The translations under genes were made by a program, and so were the position numbers. Source: a bacterium (GTDB lineage Bacteria; Myxococcota_A; UBA9160; UBA4427). Taken from it: a stretch of 64,000 bases of DNA. Below the pieces are notes generated by a model. The model did not search any database. It was given only the letters and a program-made list of their open reading frames with translations, and was not told the origin of the DNA. This document shows, piece by piece, positions 2,943 to 11,970 of the stretch (position 1 is the first letter of the stretch; the number at the start of each line of letters is the position of its first letter). Location: the NCBI GenBank assembly GCA_024742285.1, contig JANSYR010000007.1:248001-312000 (forward strand). The letters run 5' to 3'.

Positions 2943-3992
2943 ATGCGAAGCGCGAAAGACTTCTTTCAGCCGATGGCGCTCGGTGCGCCCGAGCCCCTCC
3001 GCGAGATCCCCTTCAAGCCCTCGCGGATGATCCACTTCTTCGATCCCAGCAACGCGAAGATGGCGACGAAGATCCCGGACATCGCCAAGAAGTGCGACGT
3101 CCTGCTCGGAAACCTCGAGGATGCGATCCAGGCGGACAACAAGATCGCGGCGCGCGAGGGCCTCGTGAAGATCGGCAACGAGACCGACTTCGGGAGCTGC
3201 CAGCTCTGGACCCGCGTGAACAGCCTCGACTCGCCCTGGTTCCTCGACGACGTCATGACCCTCGTCGAAGGGCTCGGCAACAAGCTCGACGTGATCATGG
3301 TCCCGAAGGTCGAGGGGGCCTGGGACATCCACTACGTCGACCGCCTGCTGGCCCAGCTCGAGGCGCGCCACCGCCTCGAGAAGCCGCTGATGATCCACGC
3401 GATCCTCGAGACGGCCCTCGGCGTCGCGAACGTCGAGGAGATCTGCGCCGCGAGCCCGCGGATGCAGGGCCTCTCGCTCGGGCCGGCGGACCTCGCCGCC
3501 AGCCGCCGCATGAAGACGACCCGCGTCGGCGGCGGCCACCCGGGATACGTCGTCCGCACGGACCCCGACGCCGCGAACCCCGACGCCCCGCGCCCGACCG
3601 CGCAGCAGGACCTCTGGCACTACACGATGGCCCGCATGGTCGACGCGTGTAACGCCAACGGCATCCTCCCCTACTACGGCCCCTTCGGCGACATCAAGGA
3701 CACGGTCGCCTGCGAGGACCAGTTCCGGAACGCCTTCCTGATGGGCTGCGTCGGCACCTGGAGCCTCCACCCCGTTCAGATCGACATCGCCAAGAAGGTA
3801 TTCTCGCCACCGGTCGACGAGGTCCTCTGGGCCAAGAAGGTCATCGACGAGATGGGCGACGGCACCGGCGCGGTCATGATCGACGGCAAGATGCAGGACG
3901 ACGCGACGGTCAAGCAGTGTCGCGTCATGGTCGAGCTCGCGCGCATGCTCTGCGAGAACGACGACGAGCTGCGGGAAGCGTACGGGTTCTAG
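2943..3992 (+). CDS. mcl: L-malyl-CoA / beta-methylmalyl-CoA lyase, Chloroflexus type
   Basis: 349 residues, HpcH/HpaI aldolase-citrate lyase beta superfamily. It looks like the Chloroflexus aurantiacus trifunctional malyl-CoA lyase rather than the shorter Rhodobacter Mcl1: the N-terminus ([18 protein letters not shown]), [42 protein letters not shown] and [11 protein letters not shown] all fit that family as I know it. It cleaves or condenses malyl-CoA (acetyl-CoA plus glyoxylate) and beta-methylmalyl-CoA (propionyl-CoA plus glyoxylate) with a divalent metal held by Glu/Asp residues (the E of GNLEDAI). The start at 2943 follows GAGGAG by about 10 nt; an in-frame ATG at 2895 lacks a better site. 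No operon partner; the pathway partner ecm is 15 kb away. Confidence 0.9.
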
Positions 3993-4033: not shown

Positions 4034-4555
4034 CTACTCGCTCGAAGCGGGCGCGTCGAGGGTCGGATAGCGCGCCTTCGCCCGCGACGTGACGATGTCT
4101 GCGTGCATCGGCGCGAGCCGGGCGAGCAGGCGGTTCTGAGCGGGCACTGGCACCCGGAGCGACTCCATCGCCCGGATCAGACACTCCACGGTGGCGTTGA
4201 ACGCGCGCTGATCGATCTCCATCCCCCGATGGACTTCGAGCATCGAGTCGCCGTCGTAGGTGCAGGGGCCATCCGCGATCTCGCAGAGATGGGCCGCGAT
4301 CTGAGAACGGAAGCGACGCGCATCGATCCCCTCGAAGTGCGGTCGGGTGTTCGGGTCGGTCGCGAGCTCGCGCACGAAACGGTCCGCGACCCGATCGACG
4401 CCCTCGACGCCCCCGAGCTGGACGTAGAGCGGTCGCCGGTCGAGCTGAGGAATCTCGGCGCAGCCCGTCACGAACGTCGAGAGCGCGAGCCAAAGGGTCG
4501 CCCCCAGCACGGCGCGCGCCCGGAGACTCGTCGTTCGATGGGTGTGGTTCCGCAT
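4034..4555 (-). CDS. Truncated haemoglobin (group 1) as a predicted lipoprotein
   Basis: 173 residues. A signal peptide ends in the lipobox FVTGC (Cys about residue 32), predicting a membrane-anchored lipoprotein. The mature part is a 2/2 globin: YVQLGGVEGVDRVADRFV, then GPCTYDGDSMLEVHRGM, whose His fits the haem-ligating proximal His of trHbs, then a C-terminal helix. In most group 1 trHbs the B10 position is Tyr (..FY..); here the aligned segment reads DRFV, so B10 may not be Tyr. Last gene of a four-gene operon; its ATG overlaps the DUF3034 stop by one base (TGATG). The role may be O2 or NO sensing/handling in the periplasm; that is inference from context. Confidence 0.85.
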   Translation of the reverse strand: MRNHTHRTTSLRARAVLGATLWLALSTFVTGCAEIPQLDRRPLYVQLGGVEGVDRVADRFVRELATDPNTRPHFEGIDARRFRSQIAAHLCEIADGPCTYDGDSMLEVHRGMEIDQRAFNATVECLIRAMESLRVPVPAQNRLLARLAPMHADIVTSRAKARYPTLDAPASSE

Positions 4556-5430
4556 CAGAAGCTCCCCTGGATCGAGAGATAGCCCCCGTCCTGGTGCCCC
4601 AGGCCGGCGACCTGCCCGAAGCGTCCGTAGGCCGCGACGAGCTTGAAGTGGTGACTCGGAACGACGGCCAGGAAGACGTCGTGCCACGGGTCTTCGTCGA
4701 AGGCGCGCAGATTGCTGTTCTTGTGGCGGAAGTCGTAGCCCAGGAGCACGCGGCGCGTGAGGAAGATCGCCGCGGTCCCCTCGAAGTGGAACTGGTAGTT
4801 GTCGCGACCGGGTCCGCCGAATCCGAGCAGCCCGAGCTCGTTGGCCCGGCTCGCTCGGACGACGCCGTTGAGCAGCACGTTGTGCCCCGCCAGCGCGCCC
4901 AGGTAGACCTTGCTCACTCCCGCGTAGAGATCGACGCCCCAGTCGTCGTCCGCGCCGACCAGCCGCGGGACGTCGAAGTCGAGGACGTGTTTGAACTGCG
5001 CACCGACCGCGATCGCCGGCAGCGATCCGTAGACGAGGTCACCCGCGACGCGCACCTTCACGCCGAACACGTTCTGCTTGATCAGCTCGTCGAGGGGGCG
5101 GACCTCGAGGCGCTGGTGCGCGAAGGAGAGCTCCACGCGGTCGTAGAGCCCGATCGCAGCGCCGAAGCTCGCGAGCCGCAGATCATCCACGAAGACGCCC
5201 GTACCGAAGGCCGATCCGCCGACCTCGGAGTCCGTCCCGGTCCCCGCGATCACGGCCCACGGGACGATCCCACTCCCGGCGGAGCCCTCGATCTGGGTCG
5301 CGCCTCCGGTCGCCAGCAGACGCCCGCCCGCCGCCGCCGGTGACGCCGCCAGGAGCGCGGCGATCACGCCCAGCGCGATGCGAGGGCCCGCCCGTCTCAT
5401 CCGCCCTCGTTTCGCTCGACGATCACGCAT
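4555..5430 (-). CDS. DUF3034 family outer-membrane-like protein
   Basis: 291 residues. After a signal peptide (IALGVIAALLAASPAAA) comes the DUF3034 signature GGRLLATGGATQIEG followed by GIVPWAVIAG, then a series of amphipathic strands with aromatic ends, ending in LSIQGSF with a terminal Phe as in beta-barrel outer-membrane proteins. The function of DUF3034 is unknown. I chose the ATG at 5430 because AAGGAGG lies about 7 nt upstream inside the end of the preceding gene; an ATG ten codons later (5400) is a weaker alternative. The gene overlaps its upstream neighbour by 8 bp and its downstream neighbour by 1 bp, so it is an obligate operon member. Confidence 0.85.
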   Translation of the reverse strand: MRDRRAKRGRMRRAGPRIALGVIAALLAASPAAAGGRLLATGGATQIEGSAGSGIVPWAVIAGTGTDSEVGGSAFGTGVFVDDLRLASFGAAIGLYDRVELSFAHQRLEVRPLDELIKQNVFGVKVRVAGDLVYGSLPAIAVGAQFKHVLDFDVPRLVGADDDWGVDLYAGVSKVYLGALAGHNVLLNGVVRASRANELGLLGFGGPGRDNYQFHFEGTAAIFLTRRVLLGYDFRHKNSNLRAFDEDPWHDVFLAVVPSHHFKLVAAYGRFGQVAGLGHQDGGYLSIQGSF

Positions 5431-7774
5431 CGAGGCCCTCCTTCTCGAATCGATCGAGCCAGATCGAGAACTCGTCTTCCGGCATGGGCCGCCCCATCCA
5501 GTAGCCCTGCGCGACGTCGCAGCCGTTTCGCTGCAGGATCTTCCAACTGATGCGGTCTTCGACGCCCTCGGCGACAACCTTGAGTCCGAGACTGTGTCCG
5601 AGCTCGACGGTCGCCCGGATGATGGCCTCGTCGGCGGAGGCTTCCCGGAGATTCCGGACGAAGGCCTGATCGATCTTGAGTTCGTCCACCGGGAGGGTCC
5701 GCAGCTGCGCCAGCGACGAATGCCCCGTCCCGAAGTCGTCGATCGAGACGCCGACGCCCATCTCGCGCACTCGCGCCAGGACGTCCGCCGCCTGCTCGGG
5801 GTGATCCATGATCGCGCTCTCGGTCACCTCGATCGTGAGCCGTTCGGGCGGCGCACCGCTCTCTCGGAGCACCTCGGCGATCCGCTCGGGCAGATCTGGC
5901 TCGCCGGCGTCGTGGGCGGAAAGATTGATGCTCACGACGAGATCGATCCCGCTCGCCGACCACTGAGCGATCCGTCGACACGCGACCTCGAGAACCCAGC
6001 GCGAGACGTTCCCGATGAAGCCGGTCTGCTCGGCGATCCCGATGAACTCCTCCGGATTCATTCGCCCCATGACCGGATGGGTCCAACGAATCAAGGCCTC
6101 GACGCCGACGACCCGCGCCGAGACGAGGTCGAGCTTCGGCTGGTAGTGGAGCTCGAGCTGGCCTTCTTCGAGCGCACGTTCCAGCTCGATCGCGATTCCG
6201 ATCCGACGTTGATTCGCCTCTTCCAGACCAGGCAGGTAGGCGGCGATCCCGGACGGCGATTGTTTCGCCAGCCCGAGCGCCATCTCCGCCCTGCGCATGA
6301 CCTCGTCGACGGCGCGACCATCCGCGGGAACGCTGGCCGTTCCGACGCGAACACCGACCGACACCTGGACGTCGCGAATCTCGTGCGGCGCCTCGAGCTG
6401 CTCACACGCCGCGCGGGTGACTTCTTCGAGCGCGACGGCGTCCCGCGCCTCGGTGATCGCGAGGAACTCGTCACCCCCGACGCGGCCGAGCCACGTGATT
6501 CCAGCCGTCGCCGCGAGTCGCTCCGCGCTCCGCACCAGCAGCTCGTCGCCGATCGTGGCGCCGAACGCGCCATTGATGTCCTTCAGCTGCGCCACGTCGA
6601 TGTGGAGCACGCAGAAGGCCTCGTCTCCCGAGAGACGTCGGTCGAGCTCGTTCTCGACTGCGGCGCGATTCGGCAGGCGCGTCAGCCGATCGTGAAGACT
6701 CTCGTGCAGGATCCGCTCCTCGCGATCCGCGACGGTCTCCTGCATGATCCGAAACGTACGCGCGAGCGCACCGAACTCGTCGCGCGATTCCGGCAGGTCG
6801 ATCTCGGCACGGACGTCGCCCGCCGAGACGGCCTCGACGGCATTGGCGAGCATCGAGACCGGACGCGTCACGCGTCGCGCGACCGCGAGGGAAGACGCGA
6901 GCGCGAGCGCGACGGCGGCCGCGAAGAAGGTCACGAGTTCGCGTCGCTGTTCGACGACCGGCGCCATCGCGGCGGCATAGGACGTCTGCAACACCGCCCC
7001 GAAGCTCGCGTCGGAACCTCCGCCCAGCTCGACCGCCTGCGCGAACCAGCCCAGCGCCTCGAAGTTCTCGGAGCCTGCGGCGCGGGCGTCGAGTTCGTCG
7101 AGCGCGAGCCGCGCGGCGAGCGCCCTGCGGTCCGGCAGGGGGAGCGTCGACGAGAGTCGAACGGATCCGTTCGGAGAGCGACGCGACCAGAACGAGACGT
7201 GGAGTCCGGTGAGCCCCTGCAGCTCGCGCGCAAGATCGACGTCGAGCTCGAAGCCCATGCCCACCCAACCGACCGTGATCGGCGCCTTGACGGGGACCAA
7301 CACGATCTGTTGCAGCTGCCCACGGAGGAAGACGACCCCGCTGGCCGCGCCGGCATCTCGGGCCTCGGCGACGACGCGATCGAGGCGCTCGGTGTCCGTG
7401 TCGAGACTCGCCTGCGCCGGATCGACCGCCACCAGGTCGCCGTCGACGTCGAGCAGGAAGGCCAGGCTCGCGCCGACGCGACGACCATGGTTGGCGAGCG
7501 CCGACGCGACCGTCGCCGCGTCCTTCGTCGCGACCGCACTCCGCAACCCGAAGTCGGTGACCAGGACGCCGACGGTCGAGAGCAGGCGTTGCTCCCGATC
7601 TTCGAACAGCCGCTCGAAGACGCGACGACCGGCGTCGAGCTCGGCGATGGCACGTGCCTCCCCCTGCCGCTCGGCGCGGGCGAGGACGACGTAGCTCGTC
7701 GCCGCGTGCAGCCCGACGATCACGACGAGCATCGCCGCGAGCAGCCGGGCGCGGAAGCCGAGTGACTCGATCAA
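5423..7774 (-). CDS. Membrane GGDEF-EAL c-di-GMP enzyme with periplasmic sensor and HAMP
   Basis: 783 residues. Transmembrane helix 9-30, periplasmic sensor about 31-280, second helix about 281-300, HAMP about 301-355, GGDEF domain about 365-520 with intact GGDEF at 433-437, then EAL domain about 535-775 with intact EAL (559-561), DDFGTGHSSL and KIDQAFV. Both signature motifs are present, so it could make and break c-di-GMP. The GGDEF substrate segment (KDINGAFGATIGD) departs from the usual NDxxGHxxGD, so cyclase activity may be weak and the EAL half dominant. The ATG overlaps the stop of the cupredoxin-like gene (ATGA). The operon suggests it reads out a periplasmic redox or gas signal. Confidence 0.92.
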   Translation of the reverse strand: MIESLGFRARLLAAMLVVIVGLHAATSYVVLARAERQGEARAIAELDAGRRVFERLFEDREQRLLSTVGVLVTDFGLRSAVATKDAATVASALANHGRRVGASLAFLLDVDGDLVAVDPAQASLDTDTERLDRVVAEARDAGAASGVVFLRGQLQQIVLVPVKAPITVGWVGMGFELDVDLARELQGLTGLHVSFWSRRSPNGSVRLSSTLPLPDRRALAARLALDELDARAAGSENFEALGWFAQAVELGGGSDASFGAVLQTSYAAAMAPVVEQRRELVTFFAAAVALALASSLAVARRVTRPVSMLANAVEAVSAGDVRAEIDLPESRDEFGALARTFRIMQETVADREERILHESLHDRLTRLPNRAAVENELDRRLSGDEAFCVLHIDVAQLKDINGAFGATIGDELLVRSAERLAATAGITWLGRVGGDEFLAITEARDAVALEEVTRAACEQLEAPHEIRDVQVSVGVRVGTASVPADGRAVDEVMRRAEMALGLAKQSPSGIAAYLPGLEEANQRRIGIAIELERALEEGQLELHYQPKLDLVSARVVGVEALIRWTHPVMGRMNPEEFIGIAEQTGFIGNVSRWVLEVACRRIAQWSASGIDLVVSINLSAHDAGEPDLPERIAEVLRESGAPPERLTIEVTESAIMDHPEQAADVLARVREMGVGVSIDDFGTGHSSLAQLRTLPVDELKIDQAFVRNLREASADEAIIRATVELGHSLGLKVVAEGVEDRISWKILQRNGCDVAQGYWMGRPMPEDEFSIWLDRFEKEGLDA

Positions 7775-8475
7775 CGGAGCGCCCCGAAGACATCGCCCAG
7801 ATCGTCGTCGTGCTCCTCACGCGGTGCGGCGCGCGGTGGGGGCCGGGAAGGCAGGGTCAGCTGGAGGTGGTCGTCCGCGCCGAGCGATCGTTCCGACTCG
7901 AGCACGATGCTCTCCTCGAGGCGAGGGTGTCGCACACGCACGCGGTAGCGAGCAGCGACGACCCCGTCGATCCGGGCCCGCCCGTCCGACCCGGTTACCG
8001 CGAAATGCTTCGTCTCGAGGACGTAGACGTAGGCGAGCATGTCGTCGTGAATGTTGCAGCCGAGCACGGCGAGGCCCGCGCGACCGAACTGGATCGGAGG
8101 CACTTCGCTGCCGCGGTAGAGCTTGATCTCGAAGGTGCGTGCGGCGCTGAACGAATAGATGCTGTGGCGGACCTGGTCGCTGTTCGGAAAGTCGATCCAT
8201 GTGCCCGCCTCGACGGCGAGTACGTGCGGCTCGAAGGCGAGGTCGATCTGATCCATCACGGCGCGCGGCCCGGACCGTTCGGACGACGACGCGGGGCCTT
8301 CGCTCGAGACGACGAGGCCGCTCGCTTCGTCGATCCGCTCGAGCGAGACGACCGCATCGCGTACTGGCGACCCGTCGAGCGCCGACACCTCGACGGTCAG
8401 GCCGGAGATCGCCTGTCGGCTCGTCAGAAGGGCGGCCAGCAGGACCCACACGCCGAGCCCCCCGCGTCGGCGCAT
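7771..8475 (-). CDS. Cupredoxin-like periplasmic protein (methylamine utilization protein-like)
   Basis: 234 residues with a signal peptide (VWVLLAALLTSRQAIS). The segment FEPHVLAVEAGTWIDFPNSD, VRHSIYSFS and GCNIHDDMLAYVYV is a cupredoxin fold with candidate type 1 copper ligands His (VRHS), Cys, His and Met (CNIHDDM); the Cys-x2-His-x2-Met spacing is shorter than in plastocyanin. Proteins of this type are often annotated as methylamine utilization proteins although no mau genes are near. The C-terminal ~30 residues are Pro/Asp rich. First gene of the operon with the GGDEF-EAL, DUF3034 and globin genes. An in-frame ATG 11 codons upstream (8508) is possible, but the signal peptide is better formed from 8475. 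Confidence 0.8.
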   Translation of the reverse strand: MRRRGGLGVWVLLAALLTSRQAISGLTVEVSALDGSPVRDAVVSLERIDEASGLVVSSEGPASSSERSGPRAVMDQIDLAFEPHVLAVEAGTWIDFPNSDQVRHSIYSFSAARTFEIKLYRGSEVPPIQFGRAGLAVLGCNIHDDMLAYVYVLETKHFAVTGSDGRARIDGVVAARYRVRVRHPRLEESIVLESERSLGADDHLQLTLPSRPPPRAAPREEHDDDLGDVFGALR

Positions 8476-8617
8476 GCGTGCAGTCCGACGTGAAGACGCT
8501 GCTTCCATGGGGTCTTTTTCGACGCTGCGTGGTCCCGGCTTGAGGGCCGCGGCCCCCGGTCGCGTCGTCGGGAGTGCACTACCCTCGATCTGAGCGCCGA
8601 TCGCTACAGTCACGGAG

Positions 8618-9823
8618 ATGAAAATGGAAGCGCCGGCACGTGCGCACATCGCGCTCATGGGCCTTCTTGCCGTCTCGATCATGATGCCGGTGACGTTGCC
8701 GGTGCCGATCCTGCGTGAGCTGGTCGGCGAACGCTTCGCGGTCTCGGAGCTGCTGACCTCGCTCTTCATGTCGATCAACATGATCGGCGCGGCGATCGCA
8801 GCACCGATCGCGGGGGCGCTGGCGGACCGGATCGGCAAGCGTCGGCCGCTGGTAATCGGCGCCCTCGTGGTCGACGCGCTCTGCTTCGTCGCGATGTCCC
8901 TCGACACGTCCTTCCCGGTCTTCCTGGGCATCCGCTTCATCGAGGGCTGCGCCCACATCTTCGCGCTCTCGCTGCTGCTCTCGATCTCGGCGAGCCTCGG
9001 CGGCGAAGACGGGCGCGGGTTCACGATGGGCATGACCGGCGCCGGGATGATGCTCGGCGTCGCGATCGGCGCGCCGATCGGCGGCGTCCTCGGGCGGGAG
9101 GACGTGCTTCGGCCCCTGATGACCGGCGCCGGGCTGCTGGTGGGCGCGGCCCTCCTCGCCTCGTTCGCCCTGCTCGACCCGAAGAGCACGGAATCACGGC
9201 CTGGCGCGAGCGAGATCTGGCAGGCGATCAAGCGCCACCGCTCGATGATCGCGCCCCTCGTCTTCGCCTTCGCCGACCGCTTCACCGTCGGCTTCTACAC
9301 GACCACCTTCTCGCTCTTCGCCTCGGGGCTCCACGGCGCCGACCCGCCGCAGGTGGGGATGTGGATCGCGGTGTTCATGCTGCCCTTCGCGCTCCTCTCC
9401 TTCCCCTTCGGCGTCCTCGCCGACCGTCTCTCGAAAACGGCGCTCCTGTGCGGCGGCTCGGCGATCTACGGCGTCCTGACGGCGAGCCTCGGGTTCTGGC
9501 CGACGGAGTGGATCGCGCCCGGCATGGCGATCATCGGCATGTCCGCGGCGGTCATGTTCGTGCCGTCGATGCTGATGACGACGGATCTGACCCCGCCGGA
9601 GATCCGTTCGACCGCCCTCGGCGCGTTCAATACCGCCGGCAGTCTCGGCTTCATCCTGGGACCGCTCACCGGCGGCTTCGTGAGCGACACGGTTCGCGCG
9701 AGCCACGGGGCCGCGGCCGGCTACCAGGCGGCCTTCGTCGTCGCGGGGGCCGCGGAGATGCTCTGCGTCGCCGTTTCCCTGCCCTTCCTGCTTCGACTGC
9801 GCGCGCGGGGACTGACCACCTGA
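8618..9823 (+). CDS. Major facilitator superfamily transporter
   Basis: 401 residues with about 12 hydrophobic helices. The cytoplasmic loop between helices 2 and 3 carries the MFS motif A (GALADRIGKRRPL), and a related loop (GVLADRLSKT) recurs in the second half, as expected from the internal duplication. The family moves small solutes or drugs by proton antiport or symport; the substrate cannot be deduced. It starts divergently from the cupredoxin operon with ~140 bp between them, so regulation may be shared. A second ATG two codons in (8624) is possible. A hairpin overlaps the stop codon. Confidence 0.85.
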   Translation: MKMEAPARAHIALMGLLAVSIMMPVTLPVPILRELVGERFAVSELLTSLFMSINMIGAAIAAPIAGALADRIGKRRPLVIGALVVDALCFVAMSLDTSFPVFLGIRFIEGCAHIFALSLLLSISASLGGEDGRGFTMGMTGAGMMLGVAIGAPIGGVLGREDVLRPLMTGAGLLVGAALLASFALLDPKSTESRPGASEIWQAIKRHRSMIAPLVFAFADRFTVGFYTTTFSLFASGLHGADPPQVGMWIAVFMLPFALLSFPFGVLADRLSKTALLCGGSAIYGVLTASLGFWPTEWIAPGMAIIGMSAAVMFVPSMLMTTDLTPPEIRSTALGAFNTAGSLGFILGPLTGGFVSDTVRASHGAAAGYQAAFVVAGAAEMLCVAVSLPFLLRLRARGLTT

Positions 9824-9846: not shown

Positions 9847-10377
9847 GAACGTCGGACTCCATGGGGCGCAGAGTCCGACGAACTGTCGTACCGACCGGCG
9901 CCCCGCACCCGCGCAACCGGCCTGTGCGCGAAAATACCACGAGATACCGGATAGTTACGAGAACATTTCAGATCGGGGTCGGATCGGTTCCCTCTAATCA
10001 ATAAAGCATGACGGCGGGGACAATATTTCCCACCCAAGTGGTTCATTCCTGTAGGGTCGAATGTGCAGGATCCCTGGATCCCGCACTGGGAAGGCAGCGT
10101 GAATTCGGCTTCACGCGGTTGCGACATCCATTTATCGTTCGGCGCGTCCCTGGCTCGCGAGAGTCAGGAGGCACAGACGACCGTCGCCCGCGAGATCCCG
10201 CCCCGCTCGACACGACCGGTGCGTTCGATCCCTCCTCGTGCTGCGAGGTGACGGAGTCCTGCCTCACCAAGCATGCGGCCCGCGGAGCATGCAAGGTCAC
10301 GTGGTGAGTCGAACCTCTGCAGAAGTATCGGCGCCCTACTGGGAAGGGGGCGCTCATCGTTGAGAAGGACCTGTTCA
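9847..10377. other. Intergenic region, 531 bp, upstream of the first PEP-CTERM gene
   Basis: The part from about 9940 to 10060 is clearly lower in GC than the surroundings (aaaataccacgagatacc; ctaatcaataaagcatg). A pair of GCATGC hexamers flanks 10 bp at about 10272-10293. Short open frames exist on both strands but none has a recognisable product, codon pattern or ribosome site. Likely a promoter/leader region for the PEP-CTERM gene. No sigma-54 type -24/-12 element was convincing. Confidence 0.45.
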
Positions 10378-11043
10378 ATGCTGAGAGATCTGGCTGTTCG
10401 TTGCGCCGTATTCGTTGGGCTCCTGCTGCTCGCACCTACGTTTGCGTCCGCTGCCACCTACACCTTCACCGGCGGCTCGATGTCGCTCCGCGCGGAGCTC
10501 GCGGGGACGAGCACGTCCGTGATCGAGCCCGGTGCGGCGGATCCGGTGATCCTCACCCTGGGCGGATCCTTCGTGGAGTTCGACCCCGGCACGGACACGC
10601 TGTCGGGGCTCGAGCTGATCCCGACCGGGACGTTCGTTCTCGATCTCGACCAGACCGTGGTCGGACTCGACATCGTCGAGGTGAGCAACGCGATGCTCGT
10701 CGAGGCCCCCGGAGCGACCGCCCTGGTGAGCGGCGCAGGCTCCTTCAACATTGCCACGGTCATGAGCGGCGACGTCCAGGCCGTCGGAGCGCCGCCGCCG
10801 CCGACCTACTACGAGTCCACGAACTCGTCGACGGGCGGATCGCTCTTCGTCTCGGGGACGCAGCTCGACCTGGCGATCTTCGGCGTCACGCTGGCGACCT
10901 TCGACGCCCCCATGGGCCAGACCATCGACGTGAAGGCCGACTTCACCTTCTTCGGCGTCGTCCCCGAGCCGGGAACGGCTCTGCTCCTCGGCCTCGGTCT
11001 GGCGGGACTCTCTGCCTCCGGTCGCCGCACCGAGCAGCGCTGA
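10378..11043 (+). CDS. PEP-CTERM sorting-domain protein
   Basis: 221 residues, exported. A signal peptide (VRCAVFVGLLLLAPTFASA) is followed by a beta-rich, Ser/Thr/Gly-rich body and a C-terminal VPEPGTALLLGLGLAGLS plus a basic end (GRRTEQR), the PEP-CTERM signal recognised by an exosortase/archaeosortase-like enzyme (EpsH family). Such proteins are tied to extracellular polymer production. The start is at 10378 with GAGAAGGAC about 5 nt upstream; the longer frame from 10273 has no signal peptide at its start. No exosortase is in the window. It forms a pair with the PEP-CTERM gene at 11329, which has a near-identical C-terminus but an unrelated body. Confidence 0.85.
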   Translation: MLRDLAVRCAVFVGLLLLAPTFASAATYTFTGGSMSLRAELAGTSTSVIEPGAADPVILTLGGSFVEFDPGTDTLSGLELIPTGTFVLDLDQTVVGLDIVEVSNAMLVEAPGATALVSGAGSFNIATVMSGDVQAVGAPPPPTYYESTNSSTGGSLFVSGTQLDLAIFGVTLATFDAPMGQTIDVKADFTFFGVVPEPGTALLLGLGLAGLSASGRRTEQR

Positions 11044-11328: not shown

Positions 11329-11970
11329 ATGCGACTGCGATTCTCGAAGGCTGTTCCGGTACTTGCACTGAGTGGCTTGCTCTTCTCGGCCAGCTCGGCG
11401 CTCGCCGGCCCGATCGATCCCGCCTCGAGTGGGCTCGATCAGGCGCAGGGCTGCGGCGATTCGCCCTGCGCCTTCGACGTGATCTACAACCTGGATGCCT
11501 CCGCCCCCGTGACGGGCGACCTGGAGATCACCGGGAGCACCCTCGACTTCACGATCAGCCTCGCCTCGGCGACGCTGTCGGGTTCGGACGGCGCCGTCTC
11601 GTCGATCGACTTCTCCGGGGTGACCTACTCCGGCTCGTTCGCGATCACCCTCGACGGAAGCGGTGGCGCGACCATCACGGACCAGATCGCGACCATCACC
11701 GGGACCGTGACGCCGGACATCGGTGGCGCCGTGGTCTTCAACGCGATCAACGTGAACACCACCGGGCTGTGCACCGGCGTCGACACGGCTTCGCCGACGT
11801 GCGGGCTGATCTTCGGCGGGCCGACCTCGGACTTCAGCGCGAGCGTCGACGGCAACACCCGCTACTTCCGCCACACGGTCGACGTCTCGGTCGTTCCCGA
11901 GCCCGGGACGGCCCTGCTGCTCGGTCTCGGCCTGAGCGGCCTCGCGAGCCTCAACCGCCGTCGCAGCTAG
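11329..11970 (+). CDS. PEP-CTERM sorting-domain protein
   Basis: 213 residues. Signal peptide ending SASSALAG, then a beta-rich body with two Cys pairs (CGDSPC near the N-terminus; CTGVDTASPTC later) that could form disulfides outside the cell, then VPEPGTALLLGLGLSGLASL and RRRS, a typical PEP-CTERM exosortase signal. GAGG about 9 nt before the ATG is the likely ribosome site. The 280-bp gap before it is lower in GC (11170-11300) and separates it from the first PEP-CTERM gene by a hairpin, so it is probably transcribed on its own. The body is not recognised beyond its fold-like composition. Confidence 0.85.
   Translation: MRLRFSKAVPVLALSGLLFSASSALAGPIDPASSGLDQAQGCGDSPCAFDVIYNLDASAPVTGDLEITGSTLDFTISLASATLSGSDGAVSSIDFSGVTYSGSFAITLDGSGGATITDQIATITGTVTPDIGGAVVFNAINVNTTGLCTGVDTASPTCGLIFGGPTSDFSASVDGNTRYFRHTVDVSVVPEPGTALLLGLGLSGLASLNRRRS

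Follow-up and report, generated by a model that had tools for sequence, protein, structure and literature searches.

The question that this locus raises is why a putative copper protein, a c-di-GMP enzyme, a protein of the DUF3034 family and an exported globin should be encoded together in one bacterial operon. The window, by which we mean the whole stretch of 64,000 nt that was analysed, comprises positions 248,001-312,000 (forward) of contig JANSYR010000007.1 of assembly GCA_024742285.1 (Myxococcota_A; UBA9160; UBA4427), and all positions below refer to it. Inspection of its open reading frames (ORFs) revealed four ORFs on the minus strand forming an operon from 8475 to 4034, in the order Cup (8475-7771, 234 aa), the membrane GGDEF-EAL protein GE (7774-5423, 783 aa, TTG start), DUF3034 (5430-4555, 291 aa) and the globin Glb (4555-4034, 173 aa). 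Thus, the four-gene operon at 4034-8475 proposed in the initial annotation is found there, on the minus strand and with overlapping genes; the claim that all four junctions overlap is correct with respect to the successive overlaps of 4, 8, and 1 bp, but not to their number, as four genes have three junctions. As the operon is flanked by a divergent MFS transporter gene (start at 8618) and a convergent HpcH/HpaI gene (end at 3992), it is limited to these four genes, and judging from the ORF positions the intergenic region between the operon and the MFS gene (8476-8617, no strand assigned) is presumed to contain the promoter. Near the operon, at 1262-2637 on the minus strand, a gene for a CheX-domain protein overlaps a response-regulator gene by 1 bp, and two consecutive genes for PEP-CTERM surface proteins are located at 10273-11043 and 11329-11970.

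The first gene (7771-8475, minus strand) encodes Cup, which according to its translation, its fold and a partial PF13620 match is predicted to be exported and to combine a type-1 copper (cupredoxin) domain with a carboxypeptidase-regulatory-like domain at its C-terminus. PF13620 was rejected as the identity of Cup, as the match is under the curated cut-off and accounts for the C-terminal part only. No cupredoxin match was obtained for Cup in Pfam, and a phmmer comparison with the PDB sequences gave no useful match. The AlphaFold2 model (pLDDT 88) predicts a cupredoxin beta-sandwich, which matches plastocyanin, amicyanin and related cupredoxins with Z 10-12 and an rmsd of about 2 Å over 80-90 residues. 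The predicted copper ligands lie in one stretch (8038-8166, minus strand), namely H104 (8166-8164), C140 (8058-8056), H143 (8049-8047), and M146 (8040-8038), the latter three forming a C-x2-H-x2-M loop, and each of the four is invariant in 77 of 77 aligned relatives. From these ligands and the structure prediction Cup can be assumed to be a type-1 copper protein, so that its first description as cupredoxin-like stands despite the missing Pfam match. Amicyanin, pseudoazurin, and plastocyanin share the cupredoxin fold and the H...C-x2-H-x2-M ligand pattern with Cup, whereas Cup has the additional C-terminal regulatory-like domain and is genetically tied to signalling proteins instead of a dehydrogenase. 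The name “methylamine utilization protein”, which Cup relatives carry at NCBI, is a misleading annotation; it is used in two plasmid records (L006 and L008; L numbers denote loci), and nothing related to methylamine is present in those clusters.

GE (5423-7774, minus strand) is an inner-membrane sensor enzyme with the Pfam-derived architecture TM, dCache_3, TM, HAMP, GGDEF, EAL. Its periplasmic dCache_3 sensor region covers residues 42-206 (7157-7651; E 5.6e-16 for the whole protein, 59 bits), the GGDEF domain (6257-6697) has an intact motif, and the EAL phosphodiesterase domain (5486-6187) contains all nine catalytic residues that were checked (all on the minus strand; Pfam and alignment for both enzyme domains). 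These nine residues (E, N, E, E, D, D, K, E, Q) are all kept in 74 of 74 GGDEF-EAL proteins including that of the window, whereas a canonical-like GGDEF motif occurs in 33 of the 74 and the motif is degenerate in over half. Given that these EAL residues do not vary while many relatives have a broken GGDEF motif, the activity that has been retained, and hence the conserved output of GE, appears to be the hydrolysis of c-di-GMP by its EAL domain.

The DUF3034 protein (4555-5430, minus strand) matches PF11231 over profile positions 1-255 of 255 with 296 bits against a Pfam cut-off of 25 (E 2.9e-88). It was modelled as a 12-stranded outer-membrane beta-barrel with an N-terminal lumenal segment (pLDDT 89.1; rows from plasmid records were left out of the structure-prediction inputs). 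The best fold matches are the outer-membrane channels FapF (Z 19.7), KdgM (Z 18.6), and COG4313 (Z 17.7), with NanC also among the best and PcoB (Z 12.9) further among the matches. The barrel model, the N-terminal signal and the terminal Phe of the window protein agree with a predicted outer-membrane barrel, in line with the outer-membrane-like protein of the initial annotation, and 72 of 87 DUF3034 proteins end in an aromatic residue. The channels FapF, KdgM/NanC, and COG4313 resemble the model in size and strand number (Z 17.7-19.7, rmsd 2.0-3.2 Å), but the sequence identity is only 6-14% and they have no operon partners in common with DUF3034; the fold alone gives no function. In the alignments, conserved charged residues occupy alternate strand positions, e.g., R98, E100, and S102; K125 and R127; E233, R235, and K237, and from this pattern they should face and line the lumen of the barrel.

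The fourth gene (4034-4555, minus strand) encodes Glb, for which a lipid-anchored truncated hemoglobin had been suggested. This is borne out by a lipobox (VTG-C32, with Cys32 at 4462-4460), a Bac_globin match (PF01152, E 1.7e-13) and best PDB matches to group-1 HbN, as well as by the proximal heme histidine (F8, His109 at 4231-4229), which is invariant in 151 of 151 aligned globins. Two cysteines, C91 (4285-4283) and C98 (4264-4262), are present in 150 of the 151 (residues 91-109 span 4229-4285, minus strand) and may form a periplasmic disulfide. HbN of Mycobacterium tuberculosis has a polar distal pocket with Tyr B10 and Gln E11, which stabilise bound O2 in the trHbN type of NO dioxygenation. 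Such a pocket, which is typical for group 1 though no strict requirement, is not present in Glb, where the distal residues are apolar (B10 Val, E7 Phe, E11 Ile). The same is true throughout the alignment, as E11 is apolar in 151 and E7 in 150 of the 151 globins, while at B10 141 have Leu, Val, Ile, or Met and just two have Tyr. In most of the aligned paralogous truncated globins of the same genomes, B10 is Tyr and the Cys pair is missing. The exported globins linked to DUF3034 are a distinct apolar-pocket subfamily. From what is generally known of heme sensors, an apolar pocket speaks against tight O2 binding and makes NO or CO the likelier ligands of Glb.

In order to be more than a local arrangement, the four families should recur together elsewhere, and this co-occurrence had been named as a test for a common system. 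A first set consisted of 80 loci kept from 535 DUF3034 relatives found in genome contigs. Nearly all of these 80 have a globin adjoining DUF3034 and most also have Cup and GE, in arrangements such as Cup-GE-DUF-Glb, a divergent GE-Cup-Glb / DUF and a divergent GE-Cup / DUF-Glb; plasmids of Caballeronia and Novosphingobium carry DUF-Glb-Cup-GE and a divergent form. Even samples contained DUF3034 in 15 of 274 genomes of Gammaproteobacteria, 10 of 240 of Alphaproteobacteria, and 46 of 151 of Xanthomonadales. Together with the earlier loci this gave 158 scored DUF3034 loci, a few of which are included twice (e.g., L067/L167 and L085/L211). Of the 158, 150 have a globin at most 1.5 kb from DUF3034, and about 116 have Cup at most 6 kb away. 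In the even samples the globin linkage was found in 9 of 14 full-length loci of Gammaproteobacteria, 9 of 10 of Alphaproteobacteria, and all 49 loci fetched from Xanthomonadales. The eight loci without a nearby globin comprise two cut contigs, one with a globin about 10 kb away, the alphaproteobacterial L212, and the four members of a divergent, globin-less DUF3034 clade (L203-L206). In L203, a gene for a pyridine nucleotide-disulphide oxidoreductase adjoins DUF3034. With a globin so close to DUF3034 in 150 of 158 loci, a chance operon can be ruled out. Shared synteny is ruled out as the cause as well, since gene orders and orientations vary by clade among the 158 loci and no further family is consistently linked in the first 80, apart from synteny at the level of Pseudomonas. 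The four families thus recur in distant proteobacteria and in different orders, and the co-occurrence test is clearly passed. In the window's own phylum DUF3034 is rare, being present in 3 of 379 Myxococcota_A genomes, all of the same genus as the window, and therefore it was probably acquired by this lineage; the window protein forms a long branch on the DUF3034 tree. About 30 loci, mostly of Xanthomonadales, contain DUF3034 and the globin with neither Cup nor an output protein found nearby, hence the pair may serve a separate function. In L194 (G475:C54:20343-21101), DUF3034 and its GGDEF-EAL partner are both split by in-frame stops, which suggests either that the system is decaying or that the assembly is poor.

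The observation that decides the interpretation concerns the signalling protein. An EAL output is present in about 88 DUF3034 loci. Next to Cup, DUF3034 and the globin, about 14 loci instead have a Ser/Thr protein kinase of the Cache/CHASE4 type (L029, L053, L060, L067, L159, L163-L169, L171, and L198), about five have a HisKA/HATPase protein (HAMP-PAS histidine kinases in L085/L211, L207, and L208), and two have a dCache_3-HAMP-adenylate/guanylate cyclase (L026 and L035). As exceptions within this set, Cup was not seen in L166, and the globin of L035 would fall past the contig edge. Mapping the known outputs on the DUF3034 tree requires at least seven changes, and for the Ser/Thr kinase loci alone at least three are forced by well-supported branches. 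The frame of the histidine kinase in L208 (L208:5597-7747, minus strand) extends through a signal-like segment to a type-1 copper domain, a possible kinase-cupredoxin fusion. Cup is also paired with a GGDEF-EAL protein where DUF3034 and the globin are absent nearby, in six of six such loci (L126, L132, L133, L134, L136, and L139), and this is an independent two-gene unit; in some Xanthomonadales Cup is accompanied by a sensor-only membrane protein. Genes for ECF sigma factors lie within 5 kb of DUF3034-globin in about 18 loci (L007, L038, L144, L149, L151, L153, L154, L155, L157, L158, L160, L168, L170, L176, L179, L181, L182, and L202), some with anti-sigma genes; this is a raw count without random control, and three of the genes were covered by a Pfam check. 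An ECF sigma factor is thus a possible further output. The sensor slot beside Cup in L176 (L176:4315-5814) is occupied by a repeat protein, propeller-like by eye and with a C-terminal membrane helix, for which no Pfam match was obtained. The observations support a periplasmic input module with interchangeable outputs, and as the output domain is swapped among relatives, the envelope-spanning signalling role proposed in the initial annotation is strongly supported. Its second part, c-di-GMP as the output, agrees with the EAL residues conserved in 74 of 74 proteins but has to be narrowed, since several other outputs occur besides c-di-GMP and the conserved activity is hydrolysis. Since the type of sensor domain varies with the output as well (dCache_3, CHASE4-like, four-helix bundle), a single common contact is not certain.

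We therefore consider it fairly probable that the operon encodes a conserved envelope sensory system, in which barrel and globin are the outer module and Cup reports to an inner-membrane transducer with a swappable output. The gene set, its linkage, the folds, the export signals, the conserved ligands and catalytic residues, and the exchange of outputs come from sequence or structure prediction. As DUF3034 is linked to the globin, and the heme and copper ligands are conserved at the level of the alignments, the idea of envelope sensing withstands the conditions named for its refutation. From this we infer the physical contacts, the direction of signalling and the ligand as follows. The exported heme globin would form the outer module together with the DUF3034 barrel, and the periplasmic Cup would be a redox or ligand reporter in contact with the periplasmic part of the signalling protein in the inner membrane. 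The signal may be copper, O2, NO, or the redox state; a diatomic ligand, with NO as a first guess, or a redox change at the heme or the copper would alter the contact between Cup and dCache, and the HAMP linker would relay this change to the enzyme in the cytoplasm. For the window protein this would mainly mean c-di-GMP hydrolysis by the EAL domain, and in relatives the same input would drive a Ser/Thr kinase, a histidine kinase, a nucleotide cyclase, or perhaps an ECF sigma factor.

Several known systems are similar in part. YfiBNR/TpbB consists of an outer-membrane lipoprotein, a periplasmic regulator and an inner-membrane HAMP-GGDEF enzyme. It is likewise encoded by one operon, and outer-membrane-anchored and periplasmic redox-linked proteins control an inner-membrane c-di-GMP enzyme; however, it has no heme globin, copper protein or DUF3034 barrel, its output is a cyclase and not EAL, and the two sets are not homologous. 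According to Pfam, the operon proteins match families other than the OmpA-like lipoprotein YfiB and the periplasmic repressor YfiR, though the way of working may be alike. In globin-coupled sensors, e.g., BpeGReg/BdcF and DosC, a fused cytoplasmic globin controls c-di-GMP, and the control of c-di-GMP turnover by a heme globin is what we propose for the window; however, those globins are fused to GGDEF in the cytoplasm, whereas Glb is a separate exported truncated globin without a signalling domain (PMC12805831). A globin-output fusion is not present in the operon, as Glb and GE are separate proteins. Periplasmic control by heme or copper has a precedent in the GGDEF-EAL proteins of P. aeruginosa, whose periplasmic CHASE4 domains bind heme or copper (PMC13277305). 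These one-component systems (IsmP/PA2072, PA14_37690, and PA14_53310) share the periplasmic sensor, the GGDEF-EAL output and the heme/copper signal, but the metal or heme binds directly to the sensor, and the passages covered do not mention a cupredoxin, a globin or DUF3034 as partners (PMC13277305).

The copper-binding CHASE4 protein among these (PMC13277305) would also fit another explanation, i.e., that the system senses copper status, with Cup as the copper reporter, a barrel that admits copper or a copper complex, a signalling protein that reads the loading of Cup, and a globin with an accessory redox or NO-protective function. The invariant type-1 site, the Cup/GGDEF-EAL units without DUF3034 and globin, and the PcoB fold match would agree with this. 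However, the most obligate pair is DUF3034 and the globin and does not include Cup, no copper export or resistance genes are linked in 80 clustered loci, and the usual task of type-1 copper sites is electron transfer and not metal sensing, which makes pure copper sensing unlikely. An electron-transfer cupredoxin next to a heme protein is a typical redox pairing, and hence the globin could act as an NO dioxygenase, a nitrite reductase or a peroxidase and, with Cup as electron carrier, detoxify or convert a small molecule entering via the barrel, while the signalling protein only tracks the flux. The roughly 30 loci with DUF3034 and globin alone are in line with such chemistry, but genes for a reductase or an electron donor are absent from the linked families in the 80 loci, and the apolar pocket has neither the Tyr at B10 nor the polar residue at E11 that are found in trHbN, so that we regard this as improbable. 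The similarity of the DUF3034 barrel to the substrate channels KdgM, NanC, and COG4313 might further be taken as a hint to uptake of heme or small molecules, with DUF3034 as nutrient channel, the globin as heme carrier and the remainder as a substrate-responsive regulator. This is very unlikely, as the proximal His and the heme-pocket residues are kept across 151 globins and no gene for a TonB-type or inner-membrane transporter is consistently linked in the 80 loci.

The preferred reading, a sensory system of the envelope, can be taken one step further. Tentatively, and with somewhat less than an even chance of being right, it might represent a new class of envelope receptor, in which a gas or redox stimulus is perceived by barrel and heme globin, a blue-copper protein is its messenger through the periplasm, and the response in the cytoplasm comes from whichever output the lineage uses, be it c-di-GMP hydrolysis, a Ser/Thr or His kinase, a nucleotide cyclase or perhaps an ECF sigma factor. 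A search of the published open literature gave neither a function of DUF3034 nor any description linking a cupredoxin, DUF3034, a truncated globin and a signalling enzyme, and the four-gene cluster seems never to have been described before. DUF3034 is mentioned in two of 5.39 million papers, and both were set aside as apparent misprints or clashes, namely a retron paper whose text says DUF3037 and a Streptomyces entry that refers to an actinobacterial membrane protein. If the reading is true, this type of receptor would be widespread in Proteobacteria, including Pseudomonas, Xanthomonas, and Shewanella, and many EAL, kinase and cyclase proteins without known input would gain signal inputs. Furthermore, the roles of exported truncated globins and orphan cupredoxins, an old question, would become directly testable. 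The recurrence of the set in distant bacteria with an exchanged signalling part suggests a common and unstudied way in which bacteria sense their surroundings.
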